64,000 nucleotides of DNA. Origin: an uncultured Roseburia sp. (GTDB lineage: Bacteria; Bacillota; Clostridia; Lachnospirales; Lachnospiraceae). The translations under genes were made by a program, and so were the position numbers. Below the pieces are notes generated by a model. It saw nothing but the letters and a program-made list of their open reading frames with translations. It ran no database searches and was not told the DNA's origin. Positions 20,042 to 25,592 of this stretch are shown in pieces. The stretch is from NCBI GenBank assembly GCA_945787015.1, contig CALZGM010000009.1, positions 1 to 64,000 of the forward strand. Direction: 5' to 3'. The stretch's first letter is position 1; each line of letters begins with the position of its first letter.

Positions 20042-21513
20042 ATGAGGGAATTACATTTATTACGTACCGGGAAATTACTTTTTTTAACTCAGATTGTTAC
20101 AACGATTTTTTTGACAATAGGTTTGCTGTCACAGATGATGCTATCGGGAATGCCTCCCATTCGAAGTATTGTTCCATTAGTAGTAAACATCGGGGTGTTT
20201 GTAGCTAGTATTTTTGTATATTTAAAGTTTAAGGGATCATACAAGTACTTTTATTTTGTAGGAATTGCTTTTTCTGTTTTATATCTATTTATTATGTTGC
20301 TTGGAGCGAGTGGTTCCGTGTTTCCTTACATGATTCCGTATTTGATTGTACTGGTACTCGCTTTGGATAAAAAGATTGTAAATATTGTGGGTGCTGTATT
20401 TCTAGTAGTGAATGTGATGCGTGTGGGGATGACATTTGCGACAGCTGCAGATCCGCAGACTGCAATTGAAAGCTGTATGATTGAAATAATTATTACTATT
20501 TTGGTTGCATTGGTATCGATGAAGGGCGTCACTTTGGTAAATCAGTTCTTTACAGAGTCTGCTGCAGAACTGACAAGTGCATCGGAAAAAATAGTGCGAT
20601 GACAGAAAAGATTATAGAAGTTGCGCGTAATGTAGAAGAAGAAACAGAATGTGCAAAAGAGAATATTGCACAAATTTCGGAGCAGACCCAGAATTTAAGC
20701 AGCTCAATGAATGACATTTCATCAGGAATTACAGGAGTAGCGGAAGCGATTTCTAACCAAATAGTGGAAACACAGGAAATTCAGAATATTATCAGTGATA
20801 CATATGCACAGACAGAAAAGATTGCCGGCATTATGAATGAGGCACAACAGGCACTTGACGATGGTGGAGTGATTATGGGTAACCTAATGAATCACGTTGC
20901 AAAATCCATTGATGAGGGAGCTGATATGAAAGCAGCAGCCGGTTTATTAAAAGTAAAGACAAATGAGGTACGAGGGATTACGGACATTATTTTAAGTATT
21001 TCCAGTCAGACCAATTTACTTGCACTAAATGCCAGTATTGAGGCGGCCAGAGCAGGAGAAGCCGGAAGAGGATTCGCTGTTGTGGCAGATGAAATTCGTA
21101 ACTTAGCGGAACAAACTCGTGTAGAGACTGAAAATATTACGAAGCTACTGGATGGACTTATTACAGATGCAGAAGCAGTTACAAGTAAAGTAGAGGGTAA
21201 TGTTGAAATCTCCAACAAGGAAAACGAATTGGCCGGACAGGCAAATAACCAGTTCTTTGTAATGAGACAGCAAGTAGAAAATCTTTCTAAAAGTATGGAA
21301 CAGGTTAATGTGATGATGACCAATCTGATTGAGTCAAATAATGCCATTGTAGATAGTGTGAACACGCTGTCTGCCGGAAGTGAGGAAATTACAGCTAGTA
21401 CCACAGAGGCCTGTCACATGAGTGAGGAAAATGCAGAACGTGTAAATGCGTTTATGAAAACAATGGCTCACATTGCAGAGCAAATTGGAAAATTGGAGGA
21501 ATACAGCATCTGA
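20042..21513 (+). pseudogene. Methyl-accepting chemotaxis protein split by a one-base frameshift
   Basis: Frame 1 (20042-20602) encodes a membrane part with six hydrophobic helices and begins the cytoplasmic helix (ELTSASEK). Frame 2 (20599-21513) continues as a cytoplasmic coiled coil with the conserved receptor hairpin tip ([20 protein letters not shown], then [17 protein letters not shown]). The break is at a run of six A (20586-20591): a seventh A would join the frames as [12 protein letters not shown]. There is no HAMP or periplasmic sensor domain; the six-helix part may itself sense. The stop TGA overlaps ATG in ATGA, so reinitiation is possible. It could be a decayed gene, a phase-variable gene, slippage-dependent expression, or a sequencing error. 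Confidence 0.85.
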
Positions 21514-21582: not shown

Positions 21583-21611
21583 TTGACAGATAAATTGATA
21601 TATGCTTTACT
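21583..21611 (+). promoter_or_regulatory. Promoter of the leader peptide-ABC exporter operon
   Basis: TTGACA (21583-21588), 17-bp spacer ending in TGC (extended -10), TTTACT (21606-21611). Confidence 0.7.
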
Positions 21612-21677: not shown

Positions 21678-21872
21678 GAGGTAATAACTATGACAATGCT
21701 TAACTTTAAAAACAGATACGTCAAAAACACAAAGCATATTATTACCTCGGTTTCTTCTGTGAGATAGCGGATTCTCTTGATTTATTTAAATCGTTTACAA
21801 GAGTTATTTTTGACAGAAGTATATCTGCAATGCTTATTTGCCCGTGGTAATGGTATATACCACGGGCTTTTT
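21678..21872 (+). promoter_or_regulatory. Ribosome-mediated attenuator with mutually exclusive hairpins
   Basis: Four segments can be read. Segment 1, GAGGTAATAA (21678-21687), is the leader's own ribosome binding site. Segment 2 (21739-21750, TTATTACCTCGG) pairs perfectly over 10 bases with segment 1, supported by a nested ATGCTT/AAGCAT helix (21696-21701 with 21732-21737). Segment 3 (21840-21850, GCCCGTGGTAA) can pair with segment 2 (8 of 9 positions) or with segment 4 (21858-21867) to give a perfect 10-bp terminator stem followed by five T. A ribosome stalled early in the leader would free segment 2 to capture segment 3 and prevent termination. Confidence 0.65.
21690..21767 (+). CDS. 25-residue leader peptide
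   Basis: ATG at 21690 is preceded by GAGAGGT at good spacing; the frame ends at TAG 21765-21767. The peptide begins MTMLNFKNRYVKNTK and is basic and hydroxyl-rich, with no known family. It is located between a promoter and a terminator hairpin upstream of a drug-type ABC exporter, the same arrangement as the BmrB leader of Bacillus subtilis bmrCD. The codons overlap one strand of each alternative hairpin, which supports a regulatory role. Confidence 0.65.
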   Translation: MTMLNFKNRYVKNTKHIITSVSSVR

Positions 21873-21925: not shown

Positions 21926-23659
21926 ATGAAAAAGTTACATACCTATGTATTACGTTATTGGTATGGATATTTATTTGCAATTGTATGTATGGTATTAGCA
22001 ATTGCATTGGATATGTTATATCCGATGATTACAGAGAGTATTATTGATGACGTTATTATAGGCGGACAGTGGAAACTATTAACAAAGTTATTAATCGGTA
22101 TCGCAGTTGTCGGAGCAGGCAGAGCGGTATTTGGATATTATAAGGAATTTACTTTTGATAAACTGGCATCCAGCGTAGGTTCAGATGTGAGAAAGGATTT
22201 GTTCAACCATATCCAGTCTTTATCGATGAACTATTTCGCAGACACGAATACAGGGGAACTAATGGCTCGTGTAAAGGATGATGTAGACAGAATATGGGAT
22301 GTATTCGGTATGGTTGGAATGCTCTTGATTGAGGTTACCATACATATCACCTTTATTTTGTACTGCATGTTTACCAGAAACTGGAAGCTGGCATTTCTGC
22401 CGCTTACAACGATGATTGTCTGCGGTGTGGCAGCGATTATTATGGAGCGAAAGCTGGATAAGGTTTATGAAGAGATAAGTGAGGAAAATGCAACACTTAC
22501 TACGGTCGCAGAGGAAAACCTGGCCGGTGTAAGAACCGTAAAAGCATTCGCAAGGGAAGAACACGAGATACAGAAGTTTTTATCACATAATAAACGCTAT
22601 TACGAATTGAACATGTCGCAGTCAAAAATGATGGTGAAATATGAGCCGATTTTTCAGTTTGTGGGAAGAGCGCTACCGGTTATTACAACCATACTCGGTG
22701 GTATTTCTGTTATGAAAGGGGAAATGTCACTCGGTGCACTGGTGGCATTTGTAGAATATACGAAAAACTGTACCTGGCCGACAGAAATGATGGGCTGGCT
22801 TGCAAATGATTTATCCGCAGGCATCGCATCCATTAAGAAGATTAATAAAATCTACGGTGAGAAAGCAGAGATTGCAAATAAAGAAGATGCAGTAGTACTG
22901 GACGAAGTAAAGGGCGAGGTTGCATTCGACCATGTATCTTTTGAAATGGAAGGAAAGAAGATTTTAGAGGACATAAGCTTCACCCTTCCGGCAGGAAAGA
23001 CACTGGGCATCATGGGTGCCACCGGCTCCGGAAAATCAACGATTATCAACCTGTTGCAGCGGTTTTATGATGCAAGCAGCGGTGCAGTCAAACTGGACGG
23101 CGTGGATATCCGTAATCTTACATTAAAGCAGCTTCGCAGCAGCATTGCAGTGGTGTTGCAGGATGTCTTCCTCTTCTCAGATACGATTGAGGAAAACATC
23201 AAAATGGGACAGCGTAAGACCTTAGCAATGGATGAAGTGAAAACAGCGGCAAACCGTGCACAGGCAAGCAGCTTTATTGAAAAGCTGGATGAACAGTATG
23301 CTACCGTAATCGGCGAACGAGGCGTGGGCTTATCCGGTGGACAGAAGCAGCGAATTAGTATTGCGAGAGCGCTTTCTAAAAAGAGCCCGATTCTAGTGTT
23401 AGATGACTCTACTTCTGCATTGGATATGGAAACCGAACACGAGATTCAGAAAACTTTAAATGAGTTAAATGGAACAACAAAAATCATTATCGCACACCGT
23501 ATTTCAGCGGTCCGCCGTGCAGATGAAATCATCTACTTAGAAAACGGCAAAATCGCAGAACGCGGTACGCATGAGGAATTACTGGCGAAGAAAGGACTGT
23601 ATTATCAGACGTTCGAAGCACAGTATGGAAATTATTCAGAGCCAAGGCAATTTTCATAA
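21926..23659 (+). CDS. Heterodimeric ABC exporter half-transporter, degenerate-site subunit
   Basis: A 577-residue half-transporter: six transmembrane helices (residues ~1-310) and one ATPase domain. Walker A GATGSGKST and signature LSGGQKQR are canonical, but Walker B reads LVLDDSTSALD, with Asp in place of the catalytic Glu. This pattern matches the BmrC/LmrC type that pairs with a second subunit to leave one degenerate ATP site. Substrate is probably a drug or lipophilic compound, by family. Expression is predicted to depend on the upstream attenuator. An AAAGGGGA site precedes the ATG. Confidence 0.93.
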   Translation: MKKLHTYVLRYWYGYLFAIVCMVLAIALDMLYPMITESIIDDVIIGGQWKLLTKLLIGIAVVGAGRAVFGYYKEFTFDKLASSVGSDVRKDLFNHIQSLSMNYFADTNTGELMARVKDDVDRIWDVFGMVGMLLIEVTIHITFILYCMFTRNWKLAFLPLTTMIVCGVAAIIMERKLDKVYEEISEENATLTTVAEENLAGVRTVKAFAREEHEIQKFLSHNKRYYELNMSQSKMMVKYEPIFQFVGRALPVITTILGGISVMKGEMSLGALVAFVEYTKNCTWPTEMMGWLANDLSAGIASIKKINKIYGEKAEIANKEDAVVLDEVKGEVAFDHVSFEMEGKKILEDISFTLPAGKTLGIMGATGSGKSTIINLLQRFYDASSGAVKLDGVDIRNLTLKQLRSSIAVVLQDVFLFSDTIEENIKMGQRKTLAMDEVKTAANRAQASSFIEKLDEQYATVIGERGVGLSGGQKQRISIARALSKKSPILVLDDSTSALDMETEHEIQKTLNELNGTTKIIIAHRISAVRRADEIIYLENGKIAERGTHEELLAKKGLYYQTFEAQYGNYSEPRQFS

Positions 23660-23801: not shown

Positions 23802-25592
23802 ATGGCAGTGAATTCATATCGTGAAGATGAGTTTATGGAAAACACCGACAAAGCAAAAATCACGAAGCGGTTGCTTTCCTACTTGTTGGATTATAAAGGA
23901 AAAGTGGCTGCTGTCCTGCTCTGCATGGCAGTAACCATTGTGATTTCCTTAATCAACCCATTGATTATTGAAGAGGCACTGGATAACTACGTTGCAAACA
24001 GTGACCTGCCGGGATTGCTCAAGTTGGGAGTATTTGCCCTGGTAATCAATGTTTTATTTATTCTTTTGGTAAAAGCCCGGATGTACATCATGGCGTTAAT
24101 TACCAACAAGATTTTATTAAAAATCCGTCAGGATTTATACGAGCACATTCAGACATTATCCTTTGCTTTTTTTGACAGCAGACCAACCGGAAAAATTCTG
24201 GCCCGCATCATTGGGGATGTCAATTCTCTGAAAAATGTGTTGAACAATTTTGTAACTACATTAATTCCGGAACTTATCACAGTACTGGGTGTCGTTGTGA
24301 TTATGTTAGTGAAGGATATGCGTTTGGCTTCTGCAGCACTTAGTACCATTCCTTTGATGGCGGTTACGGTATTTGGTATTCAGAAAATCACCCATAAGAG
24401 ATGGAGAGTTTTTCGTAAAAAGTCTTCAAACCTAAATGCTTATGTTCATGAGGATATTGCCGGTATGAACGTAGTACAGAGTTTTGGCGCAGAAGATGAG
24501 ACAAAGGAAATTTTCGGTGAACTGACAGATGAGCATCGCAAATCCTTCTGGTCAGCCTGCCGGTTTGCCGACTTATTCGGCCCGACCATCGACTTCTGCT
24601 GGGGACTCGGAACGATGATGCTCTATCTTGTGGGTGTAAAACTGCTCGGAGCAGAGAGAGTATCAATCGGTTTGCTGGTGGCATTCGGAACCTATATCAG
24701 TATGTTCTGGAACCCGATTATGAACCTGAGTAACTTCTATAACAACCTGGTAACAAACTTAACCGCTGCAGAGCGTATTTTTGATATTCTGGATACAGAA
24801 CCTGATATCGTAGATCGTGAAGGTGTGGAAGAACTCCCGGACATCGAAGGAAGCGTGGAATTTTCTCATGTAAGCTTCACTTACGACCGTGGCACACCTG
24901 CAGAAACAAAGGTATTAGAGGATGTCAGCTTTAAAGTAGCACCGGGTGAGACCATCGCTTTGGTAGGTCCTACCGGAGCAGGTAAAACCACAATTGTAAA
25001 CTTAATCAGCCGTTTTTATGACATCGAAGACGGGACGATTCTGGTAGATGGCTACGATTTAACCAAGGTTTCCATCAACAGCCTGCGTAAGCAGATGGGT
25101 GTGATGACACAGGATAATTTCATTTTCCACGGAACGATTCGTGAGAATATTTTATACGGAAAACTGGATGCAACAGAAGAAGAAATGATTCGTGCAGCAA
25201 AGGCAGTAAACGCCCATGATTTCATCATGAAGATGGAAAAGGGTTATGACACCGAGCTAAAAGAACAGGGAGCAGGGTTATCCATCGGTCAGCGTCAGCT
25301 GATTGCTTTCGCGAGAACCATGATTTCCATGCCGAAAATTCTGATTCTGGATGAAGCAACCTCCAGCATCGATACCCATACCGAAATCTTAGTACAGAAG
25401 GGAATCGAAGCATTGCTTGCAGGCAGAACCAGCTTTGTCATTGCACATCGTCTGTCAACCATTCAGAATGCAGACCGCATCTTCGTCATCGATAAAGGAG
25501 GCATCTTAGAGCAGGGCAGCCCAAAAGAACTGATGGAGAAAAAAGGCGCCTACTACAACTTATACATGGCACAATTTGCGGATATCCAATGA
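23802..25592 (+). CDS. Heterodimeric ABC exporter half-transporter, catalytic subunit
   Basis: A 596-residue half-transporter with six transmembrane helices and an ATPase domain. Walker A GPTGAGKTT and Walker B ILILDEATSSID, with catalytic Glu, are canonical; the signature is LSIGQRQL, with Ile in place of Gly. The altered signature complements the altered Walker B of the preceding subunit, so one composite ATP site is degenerate and one is active, as in TM287/288, LmrCD and BmrCD. The gene starts 142 bases after its partner with an AAAGGAAC site and ends at TGA overlapping a palindrome. Confidence 0.93.
   Translation: MAVNSYREDEFMENTDKAKITKRLLSYLLDYKGKVAAVLLCMAVTIVISLINPLIIEEALDNYVANSDLPGLLKLGVFALVINVLFILLVKARMYIMALITNKILLKIRQDLYEHIQTLSFAFFDSRPTGKILARIIGDVNSLKNVLNNFVTTLIPELITVLGVVVIMLVKDMRLASAALSTIPLMAVTVFGIQKITHKRWRVFRKKSSNLNAYVHEDIAGMNVVQSFGAEDETKEIFGELTDEHRKSFWSACRFADLFGPTIDFCWGLGTMMLYLVGVKLLGAERVSIGLLVAFGTYISMFWNPIMNLSNFYNNLVTNLTAAERIFDILDTEPDIVDREGVEELPDIEGSVEFSHVSFTYDRGTPAETKVLEDVSFKVAPGETIALVGPTGAGKTTIVNLISRFYDIEDGTILVDGYDLTKVSINSLRKQMGVMTQDNFIFHGTIRENILYGKLDATEEEMIRAAKAVNAHDFIMKMEKGYDTELKEQGAGLSIGQRQLIAFARTMISMPKILILDEATSSIDTHTEILVQKGIEALLAGRTSFVIAHRLSTIQNADRIFVIDKGGILEQGSPKELMEKKGAYYNLYMAQFADIQ

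Follow-up and report, generated by a model that had tools for sequence, protein, structure and literature searches.

The window analyzed here, 64,000 nt in length, comprises positions 1 to 64,000 of contig CALZGM010000009.1 of an uncultured Roseburia sp. (assembly GCA_945787015.1) and carries, at positions 21678 to 21872, a leader element followed by two ABC exporter genes. The features of the locus are as follows.

21583 to 21611, + strand: promoter-like TTGACA - 17 nt - TTTACT, inferred from sequence only
21678 to 21687, + strand: segment 1, GAGGTAATAA, leader Shine-Dalgarno (SD) sequence and putative anti-antiterminator arm (10/10 complement of 21739-21748)
21678 to 21748, + strand: hairpin 1:2, the predicted anti-antiterminator, which conceals the leader SD (minimum-energy structure; covariation on alignment A1 mixed)
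21690 to 21767, + strand: leader open reading frame (ORF), MTMLNFKNRYVKNTKHIITSVSSVR, 25 codons plus TAG (21765-21767), ATG at 21690
21736 to 21750, + strand: segment 2, ATATTATTACCTCGG, with segment 1 (core 21739-21748) and the terminator left arm as alternative partners by complementarity and folding
21754 to 21819, + strand: spacer hairpin joining segments 2 and 3 in the predicted antiterminator fold
21842 to 21856, + strand: segment 3, terminator left arm and loop, antiterminator partner of segment 2 (pairing; compensatory variants in relatives)
21840 to 21872, + strand: intrinsic terminator, GCCCGTGGTA-ATGGTATA-TACCACGGGC plus TTTTT (-18.3 kcal/mol)
21926 to 23659, + strand: ABC exporter subunit A, 577 aa, Walker B LVLDDSTS, a degenerate ATP site in which Asp replaces the expected catalytic Glu
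23832 to 25592, + strand: ABC exporter subunit B, 586 aa (from Met 23832), Walker B LILDEATS, signature LSIGQ, a canonical site

The two exporter subunits, one with a degenerate and one with a canonical ATP site, bear out the heterodimeric ABC exporter that a preliminary description of this DNA had placed downstream of the element. The region upstream (20042-21513) contains a chemoreceptor-like gene in the form of two ORFs overlapping by ATGA, the first encoding 186 aa without a Pfam match and the second 304 aa with an MCP signalling domain, which may be either a split receptor or the result of a frameshift. The promoter-like box suggests that the exporter unit is probably independent of these chemoreceptor genes. 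This box is missing from the promoter-scan list because the scan accepts only second hexamers with A as their second base, and a similar box is also visible upstream of L004, L005, and other relatives. The intrinsic terminator is placed between the box and the exporter gene.

The 25-codon leader with its ribosome binding site, the anti-SD segment at 21739-21748 that is exactly complementary to that site (10/10), and the perfect terminator all stand as they were first described. The SD lies at 21678-21687, GAGAGGTAATAA stands before the ATG at 21690, the stop codon occupies 21765-21767, and the terminator stem (21840-21849 with 21858-21867) has 10 of 10 pairs followed by TTTTT. Hairpin 1:2 includes a second helix, in which 21696-21701 pair with 21732-21737. 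The pairing of segment 2 with the terminator left arm is present as well, and its earlier count of 8 of 9 was an understatement, as antiterminator 2:3 has 14 pairs (two G-U) formed by 21736-21746 with 21846-21856 and by 21748-21750 with 21842-21844, the two blocks being split by a single U-U mismatch. The complete set of 1:2, 2:3, and 3:4 pairings claimed for the locus is correct and stronger than was stated. The 221-nt leader fold has an energy of -56.4 kcal/mol (z = -4.06), equaled by none of 200 dinucleotide shuffles; terminators in the region, by a simple terminator scan, are not in excess of shuffles (4 found versus 4.4 expected). In both predicted folds of the window, the exporter's own SD is unpaired with a probability of 0.85-0.95, which indicates control at termination rather than at translation. 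Translational attenuation was rejected because this main-gene SD is free, and the likeness to erm leaders drawn earlier is weak, since the sequestered main-gene SD of the erm type is not seen in the window folds.

A DNA search of 62 Roseburia genomes gave a match in 12, including the window's own, and 10 of the 11 others are homologous in leader and context. L013 was dropped; the common part there is the SD stretch only, and an ordinary membrane gene follows. Searching named genomes with exporter subunit A yielded 80 loci, mostly from Lachnospiraceae. A covariance model, R1, which was built from 41 sequences (alignment A1) and describes hairpin 1:2 alone, has a sense-strand match at E <= 0.05 in 55 of the 80 loci, 36 of which are in the model and 19 outside it, with one of the 19 (L016) repeating a model sequence; the other 25 loci have no R1 match, and a contig end explains several of these. 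R1 matches are also found in at least 38 of 397 genomes of the family (E <= 0.01), in at least 17 of 196 genomes of the order, 11 in families other than that of the window, and in at least 5 of 245 genomes of the class, of which four are from the family of the window and the fifth lies beyond the order. The counts in the genus, family, order, and class are lower bounds, set by strict filters and few candidates per genome (10 in the family search). Seven loci from other families (L172 to L178) each show, by eye, a leader and a following hairpin. The pattern AAGNGAGGTN{45,75}ACCTCGGT occurs at 20 places in the 397 family genomes and its reversed control at 16, and therefore the count alone is no proof. 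A terminator whose left arm resembles CCGTGG, CCGCGG, or CCATGG lies behind 19 of the 20 places, which were accepted on this ground; the remaining one, L145, was rejected and is absent from later counts. The R1 matches L117, L131, L135, and L138, which fall within coding sequence or at its beginning, were judged by eye to be chance matches and excluded. R1 also matches the window in antisense orientation (33.3 bits); we assume that this match arises from the near-palindromic nature of the hairpin, and it was excluded from the counts. The automatic terminator calls look wrong for L038, where a branched stem is visible, and L039. With elements identical over 60 nt merged, 105 elements were collected, and 104 were kept after the removal of L145.

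Exporter A orthologues (E <= 1e-150) are present in 39 of the 62 Roseburia genomes. Judged from coordinates and the corresponding named contigs, those of G020, G041, and G047 lie at contig ends, leaving 36 testable orthologues, and 35 of these have a same-strand R1 match at most 1.1 kb upstream; the 36th (G059, corresponding to L026) has a base-compensated copy of the element (29.9 bits). R1 finds at least 48 sense elements in these genomes, 35 of which precede the exporter, and 10 of the remaining 13 precede an RsgA paralogue. The RsgA paralogues at L126, L180, L181, and L182 are of the type found in the window's own genome, the one at L183 is of another type, and those at L184, L185, L186, L188, and L189 match a GNAT-RsgA fusion (L127) over nearly their whole length. 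The other three elements stand before apparently broken reading frames (L187, G037:C119), before a small ORF (L179), and, where a contig ends, before the first part of an exporter gene (L190). In the family-wide search, 44 entries besides the window's own comprise 23 exporter A genes, 12 RsgA-type genes, one other ABC exporter (L134), two small ORFs, two loci too near contig ends, and four judged to be chance. The RsgA paralogues that follow the element at L122, L127, and L137 carry a GNAT acetyltransferase-like N-terminal domain (Pfam). The window's own genome contains a second element (G000:C36:10802-10890; L161 / L126), which heads a diverged RsgA GTPase gene (152 bits; cut-off, 100), and a better RsgA (238 bits) is encoded elsewhere in the genome. 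This diverged gene is followed by an ABC-F gene, which is ribosomal-protection-like (NF000355, 474 bits versus a cut-off of 380) and far below the OptrA cut-off (605 versus 1450), and then by the start of another ABC-type ATPase gene (region G000:C36:10802-14500).

Similar small ORFs of 54-94 aa sharing W-A-x-x-E-x-x-Y-N-C lie behind the element at L179, L096, and L097, and two of the three also have I-Y-P-L-x-F; the two tested, L179 and L096, have no Pfam match. An RqcH-type gene (NFACT_N) lies ~500 nt downstream of the element at L097, and a gene resembling the RqcH type by eye only is found on the opposite strand at L179. In a sister family (L083, L086 of Petrocella, L173, L174, and L177), the element lies ~600-700 nt upstream of the exporter gene, with further terminator-like hairpins in between.

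The preliminary description had named conservation of the pairings in relatives as its own test, and the pairings are kept. Across the 104 elements, pairing 1:2 is stronger between own partners than between swapped ones (-12.9 versus -11.1 kcal/mol), as is pairing 2:3 (-12.1 versus -9.3 kcal/mol), with none of 2,000 permutations being as good in either case, and in the 23 RsgA-type and other elements none is as good for 1:2 and 51 of 2,000 are as good for 2:3, for which the test is weak, all these permutation tests being ones whose significance shared ancestry can inflate. Compensatory changes are seen in individual elements. L026 has the SD GGGGTAA with TTACCCC, by which the leader ITS becomes ITP, and L081, L111, and L119 have the SD GAGGCA with TGCCTC. 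In the antiterminator, CGCT is matched with AGCG in L087 and L088. TTTACCT is matched with AGGTAAA in L101 and L103 and with AGGTAAG in L041 and L042, and the start region of L021 and L044 has ATGTTT with AAACAT. In alignment A1, GAGGTA of segment 1 is invariant, and five of the eight SD-helix pairs never vary; the SD core hardly varies and therefore cannot co-vary. Pairs changed on both sides (4 versus 4.2) and further pair types (17 versus 15.9) show no excess over shuffles in A1, and one slid control exceeds the real helix in both (5 and 20, respectively); changed cells (24 versus 12.5), percent paired (85.0 versus 81.8), and the covariation score are above the shuffles (0/500). The sequence of the spacer hairpin varies among relatives, and A1 contains no conserved block besides the SD, the start, and segment 2. 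An Rfam search of the window gave no match at the gathering threshold, the best sub-threshold hit being Arrc14 (28.3 bits versus a cut-off of 99). The attenuator family to which the element belongs is absent from Rfam.

In 97 of the 104 elements, the leader frame continues without a stop across segment 2, compared with 21 of 194 for the other two frames; the seven elements without an ORF failed the SD-to-start rule. The 97 leaders are 21-45 codons long (median, 27), and the stop codon precedes the terminator in all of them. In 90 of the 97, segment 2 is kept in the same frame (ACC as a codon), with a start-to-core distance of about 45-105 nt. The leader is thus very probably a real reading frame. 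In exporter-type leaders, the conserved RNA segment encodes ITS, and no conserved stalling peptide was seen; codons 3-14 are not conserved by eye, and the earlier suggestion that an unfamiliar leader implies a novel inducing antibiotic is not supported in that form. Some clades read segment 2 in another frame, giving LPR (L041, L042, L103, and L170) or PYL (L083 and L173), which suggests that the RNA segment is a more general part of the element than the peptide. As codons 3-14 are unconserved and the ITS-coding RNA is conserved, the element more likely reports early stalling in general. The RsgA-type leaders L184, L185, L186, and L189 share R-E-x-V-x-x-E-Y-x-x-x-T-S-V, which has no obvious explanation from the RNA pairings and may be a stall motif.

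Sequence and comparison establish these parts, show that they are conserved and co-vary, and identify an open leader frame and the downstream genes, and these findings make it likely that the element is a ribosome-mediated transcription attenuator that reads a ribosome stalled at the start of the short leader. From them we infer the order of events, the position of the stall, and ribosome-targeting antibiotics as the signal. When the leader is untranslated, the SD (segment 1) would pair with segment 2, the terminator would form, and the exporter would be off. When it is translated normally, the ribosome would pass segment 2, stop 17 nt beyond it, and leave, and 1:2 would re-pair behind the departed ribosome, again giving the terminator and the off state. 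A ribosome stalled within approximately the first nine codons, for example by a drug acting on the peptidyl-transferase center or the tunnel, would cover or sterically block segment 1; the free segment 2 could then pair with the newly made terminator left arm, the polymerase would pass, and the exporter would be made. The ribosome footprint extends ~15 nt to either side of the P site, and therefore a stall in roughly the first nine codons is predicted to leave segment 2 free, and a later one to mask it. Since hairpin 1:2 hides the leader SD, a ribosome could report only if it had loaded before the synthesis of segment 2, and because the SD is freely usable only until segment 2 is made, ~60 nt later, the device may act as a one-shot gate. 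Our best guess for the inducer is drugs that stall ribosomes early.

Three-state folding of the 104 elements is compatible with this scheme under kinetic control. Without a ribosome, 1:2 and the terminator are each predicted in 101 elements. Masking of segment 1 in the absence of the right arm gives 2:3 (>=5 pairs) in 95 elements, with a mean of 10.5 pairs versus 5.0 when segment 2 is shuffled, and with segment 1 free and the right arm absent, 1:2 forms in 90 and 2:3 in 26. The exceptions are nine elements in which 2:3 falls below 5 pairs and three for 1:2. An antiterminator that wins at equilibrium was considered and fails: once the terminator is complete, masking segment 1 leaves 2:3 in the minimum-energy structure of just 4 of the 104 elements; in the window's element with segment 1 masked, the terminator reaches -40.3 kcal/mol versus -34.9 kcal/mol for the antiterminator. 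Antitermination must therefore be kinetic, with the antiterminator forming first and holding long enough.

The upstream chemoreceptor-like gene ends at 21513 and the terminator precedes the exporter, which would fit a plain terminator of that gene with accidental pairings; the promoter-like box in between, the distance of about 330 nt, the conservation of the element in many genomes, and the permutation tests on the pairings leave this explanation with next to no credibility. Alternative hairpins ending in a terminator are usual in small-molecule riboswitches, T-boxes, and protein-binding leaders, and the terminator might accordingly be tuned by something other than a ribosome. The Rfam result, on which riboswitches and T-boxes were rejected, the open leader with an SD in 97 of the 104 elements, and the lack of a conserved block in A1 outside the SD, start, and segment 2 all argue against such tuning, which we regard as highly improbable.

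Two further explanations keep the ribosome as the sensor and differ in the signal. The natural signal could be slow early elongation caused by starvation, cold, or ribosome damage, with the element acting as a general sensor of translation status. The RsgA paralogues among its targets, relatives of a 30S-maturation GTPase, and the absence of a visible drug-specific motif in exporter-type leaders speak for this; the commonest target found is a multidrug-type exporter, however, the second target in the window's own genome includes a ribosomal-protection-like ABC-F, and a failure of initiation alone would keep the default off state, so that we consider this signal rather unlikely. With ErmCL and MsrDL, a particular leader peptide stalls the ribosome together with one drug class, and drug-specific nascent-peptide stalling of this kind, with one drug class as the sole inducer, would be consistent with the segment 2 frame kept in 90 of 97 leaders and with the peptide common to several RsgA-type leaders. 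Exporter-type leaders, however, share almost nothing by eye in codons 3-14, the T-S residues are what the pairing segment encodes, in a frame that some clades do not use, and a stall at segment 2 would be expected to mask that segment and favor the terminator; on this evidence drug-specific stalling is unlikely. An attenuator that responds to early stalling in general remains the preferred reading.

If this attenuator works as proposed, one RNA module, its reporting confined to the first ribosome by the use of the SD as the anti-antiterminator arm, may wire a ribosome-stress regulon in Lachnospiraceae and sister families, in which the RsgA paralogues would be antibiotic-response factors rather than housekeeping 30S-maturation enzymes; we put this forward tentatively, as a possibility somewhat short of even odds. 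The regulon would comprise a multidrug exporter, RsgA paralogues, some of them fused to an acetyltransferase-like domain and one before a ribosomal-protection-like ABC-F gene, and an unnamed small protein, and the RsgA paralogue would stand to RsgA as HflXr stands to HflX. The least expected point is the association of RsgA paralogues with a switch that senses stalled ribosomes; it predicts a place for the paralogue and the GNAT-RsgA fusion in the stalled-ribosome response that their sequences alone do not suggest. The element is a testable candidate for an antibiotic-response switch of gut bacteria, the regulon of which can be traced with the covariance model, and its simple design, with the SD as the anti-antiterminator, would allow early stalls to be sensed without a drug-specific peptide.

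A search of the literature, mostly outside subscription journals and preprints, found no description of the element. It is the same kind of device as bmrBCD, vmlR, cplR, and rli80-hflXr, and its layout differs from each. In bmrBCD of Bacillus subtilis, a translated leader with a terminator overlapping an antiterminator and an anti-antiterminator precedes the exporter BmrC/BmrD, and bmrCD transcription is induced by lincomycin, erythromycin, and chloramphenicol (PMC4191407). The likeness to bmrBCD noted in the preliminary description holds for a translated leader, overlapping alternative hairpins, an ABC multidrug-type exporter, and a terminator more stable than the antiterminator, as far as the cited passages describe them (PMC4191407). 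It does not extend to the layout, as the bmrB leader gene of 162 nt has its predicted structures inside the coding region, at nt 60-162, with the role of the anti-antiterminator left open in those passages (PMC4191407), whereas the window leader has 25 codons, ends at 21767, before the terminator start at 21840, and has its own SD as the anti-antiterminator arm. In phmmer comparisons, the scores of both exporter subunits against BmrC/BmrD (YheI/YheH) are no higher than those against the 5mkk, TM_0288, or SAV1866 chains.

In vmlR of B. subtilis, a ribosome stalled on the upstream ORF (uORF) blocks the anti-antiterminator hairpin and permits the antiterminator, the release also proposed here; the uORF, as described in the cited passages, encodes the tripeptide MIN and lies in a bulge, with an SD that is single-stranded ahead of the hairpin, and the main SD is sequestered as well (PMC9226507). 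The window, in contrast, has a 25-codon ORF, a leader SD inside a helix, and a free main SD. In cplR of Clostridioides difficile, which controls an ABC-F, a 5' hairpin sequesters a three-codon uORF, MR[I/M], a stalled ribosome leads to the antiterminator, the terminator hairpin sequesters the main SD, and the reporter stayed inactive when the start codon was mutated, according to the portions cited (PMC10201436). The sequestration of the leader by a 5' hairpin and the antiterminator formed when a ribosome stalls are also proposed here, and in place of the ~three-codon uORF in the first hairpin of vmlR and cplR, the present leaders have 21-45 codons. The Listeria rli80-hflXr system is a leader attenuator with an RLR motif over a ribosome-acting factor, and an inducible ABC-F, lmo0919, is described there too (PMC6310831, in the part cited). 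The uORFC-6-1 motif before hflX has an RLR peptide and, as described in the section cited, a structure entirely downstream of the uORF start (PMC8632094). The element resembles both as a leader attenuator over a ribosome-acting factor, the RLR motif being a feature of those two. For tlrB (yxjB) of B. subtilis, the leader must be loaded before completion of the structure that inhibits its translation, a timing problem similar to that of the present element; in the cited passages, no overlapping antiterminator is identified, the stalled ribosome blocks the terminator directly, the main SD is sequestered, and NusG-dependent pausing is required (PMC6851288). What sets the element apart from bmrBCD, vmlR, and cplR is the use of the SD itself as the anti-antiterminator arm, together with a leader whose reading frame runs through segment 2.
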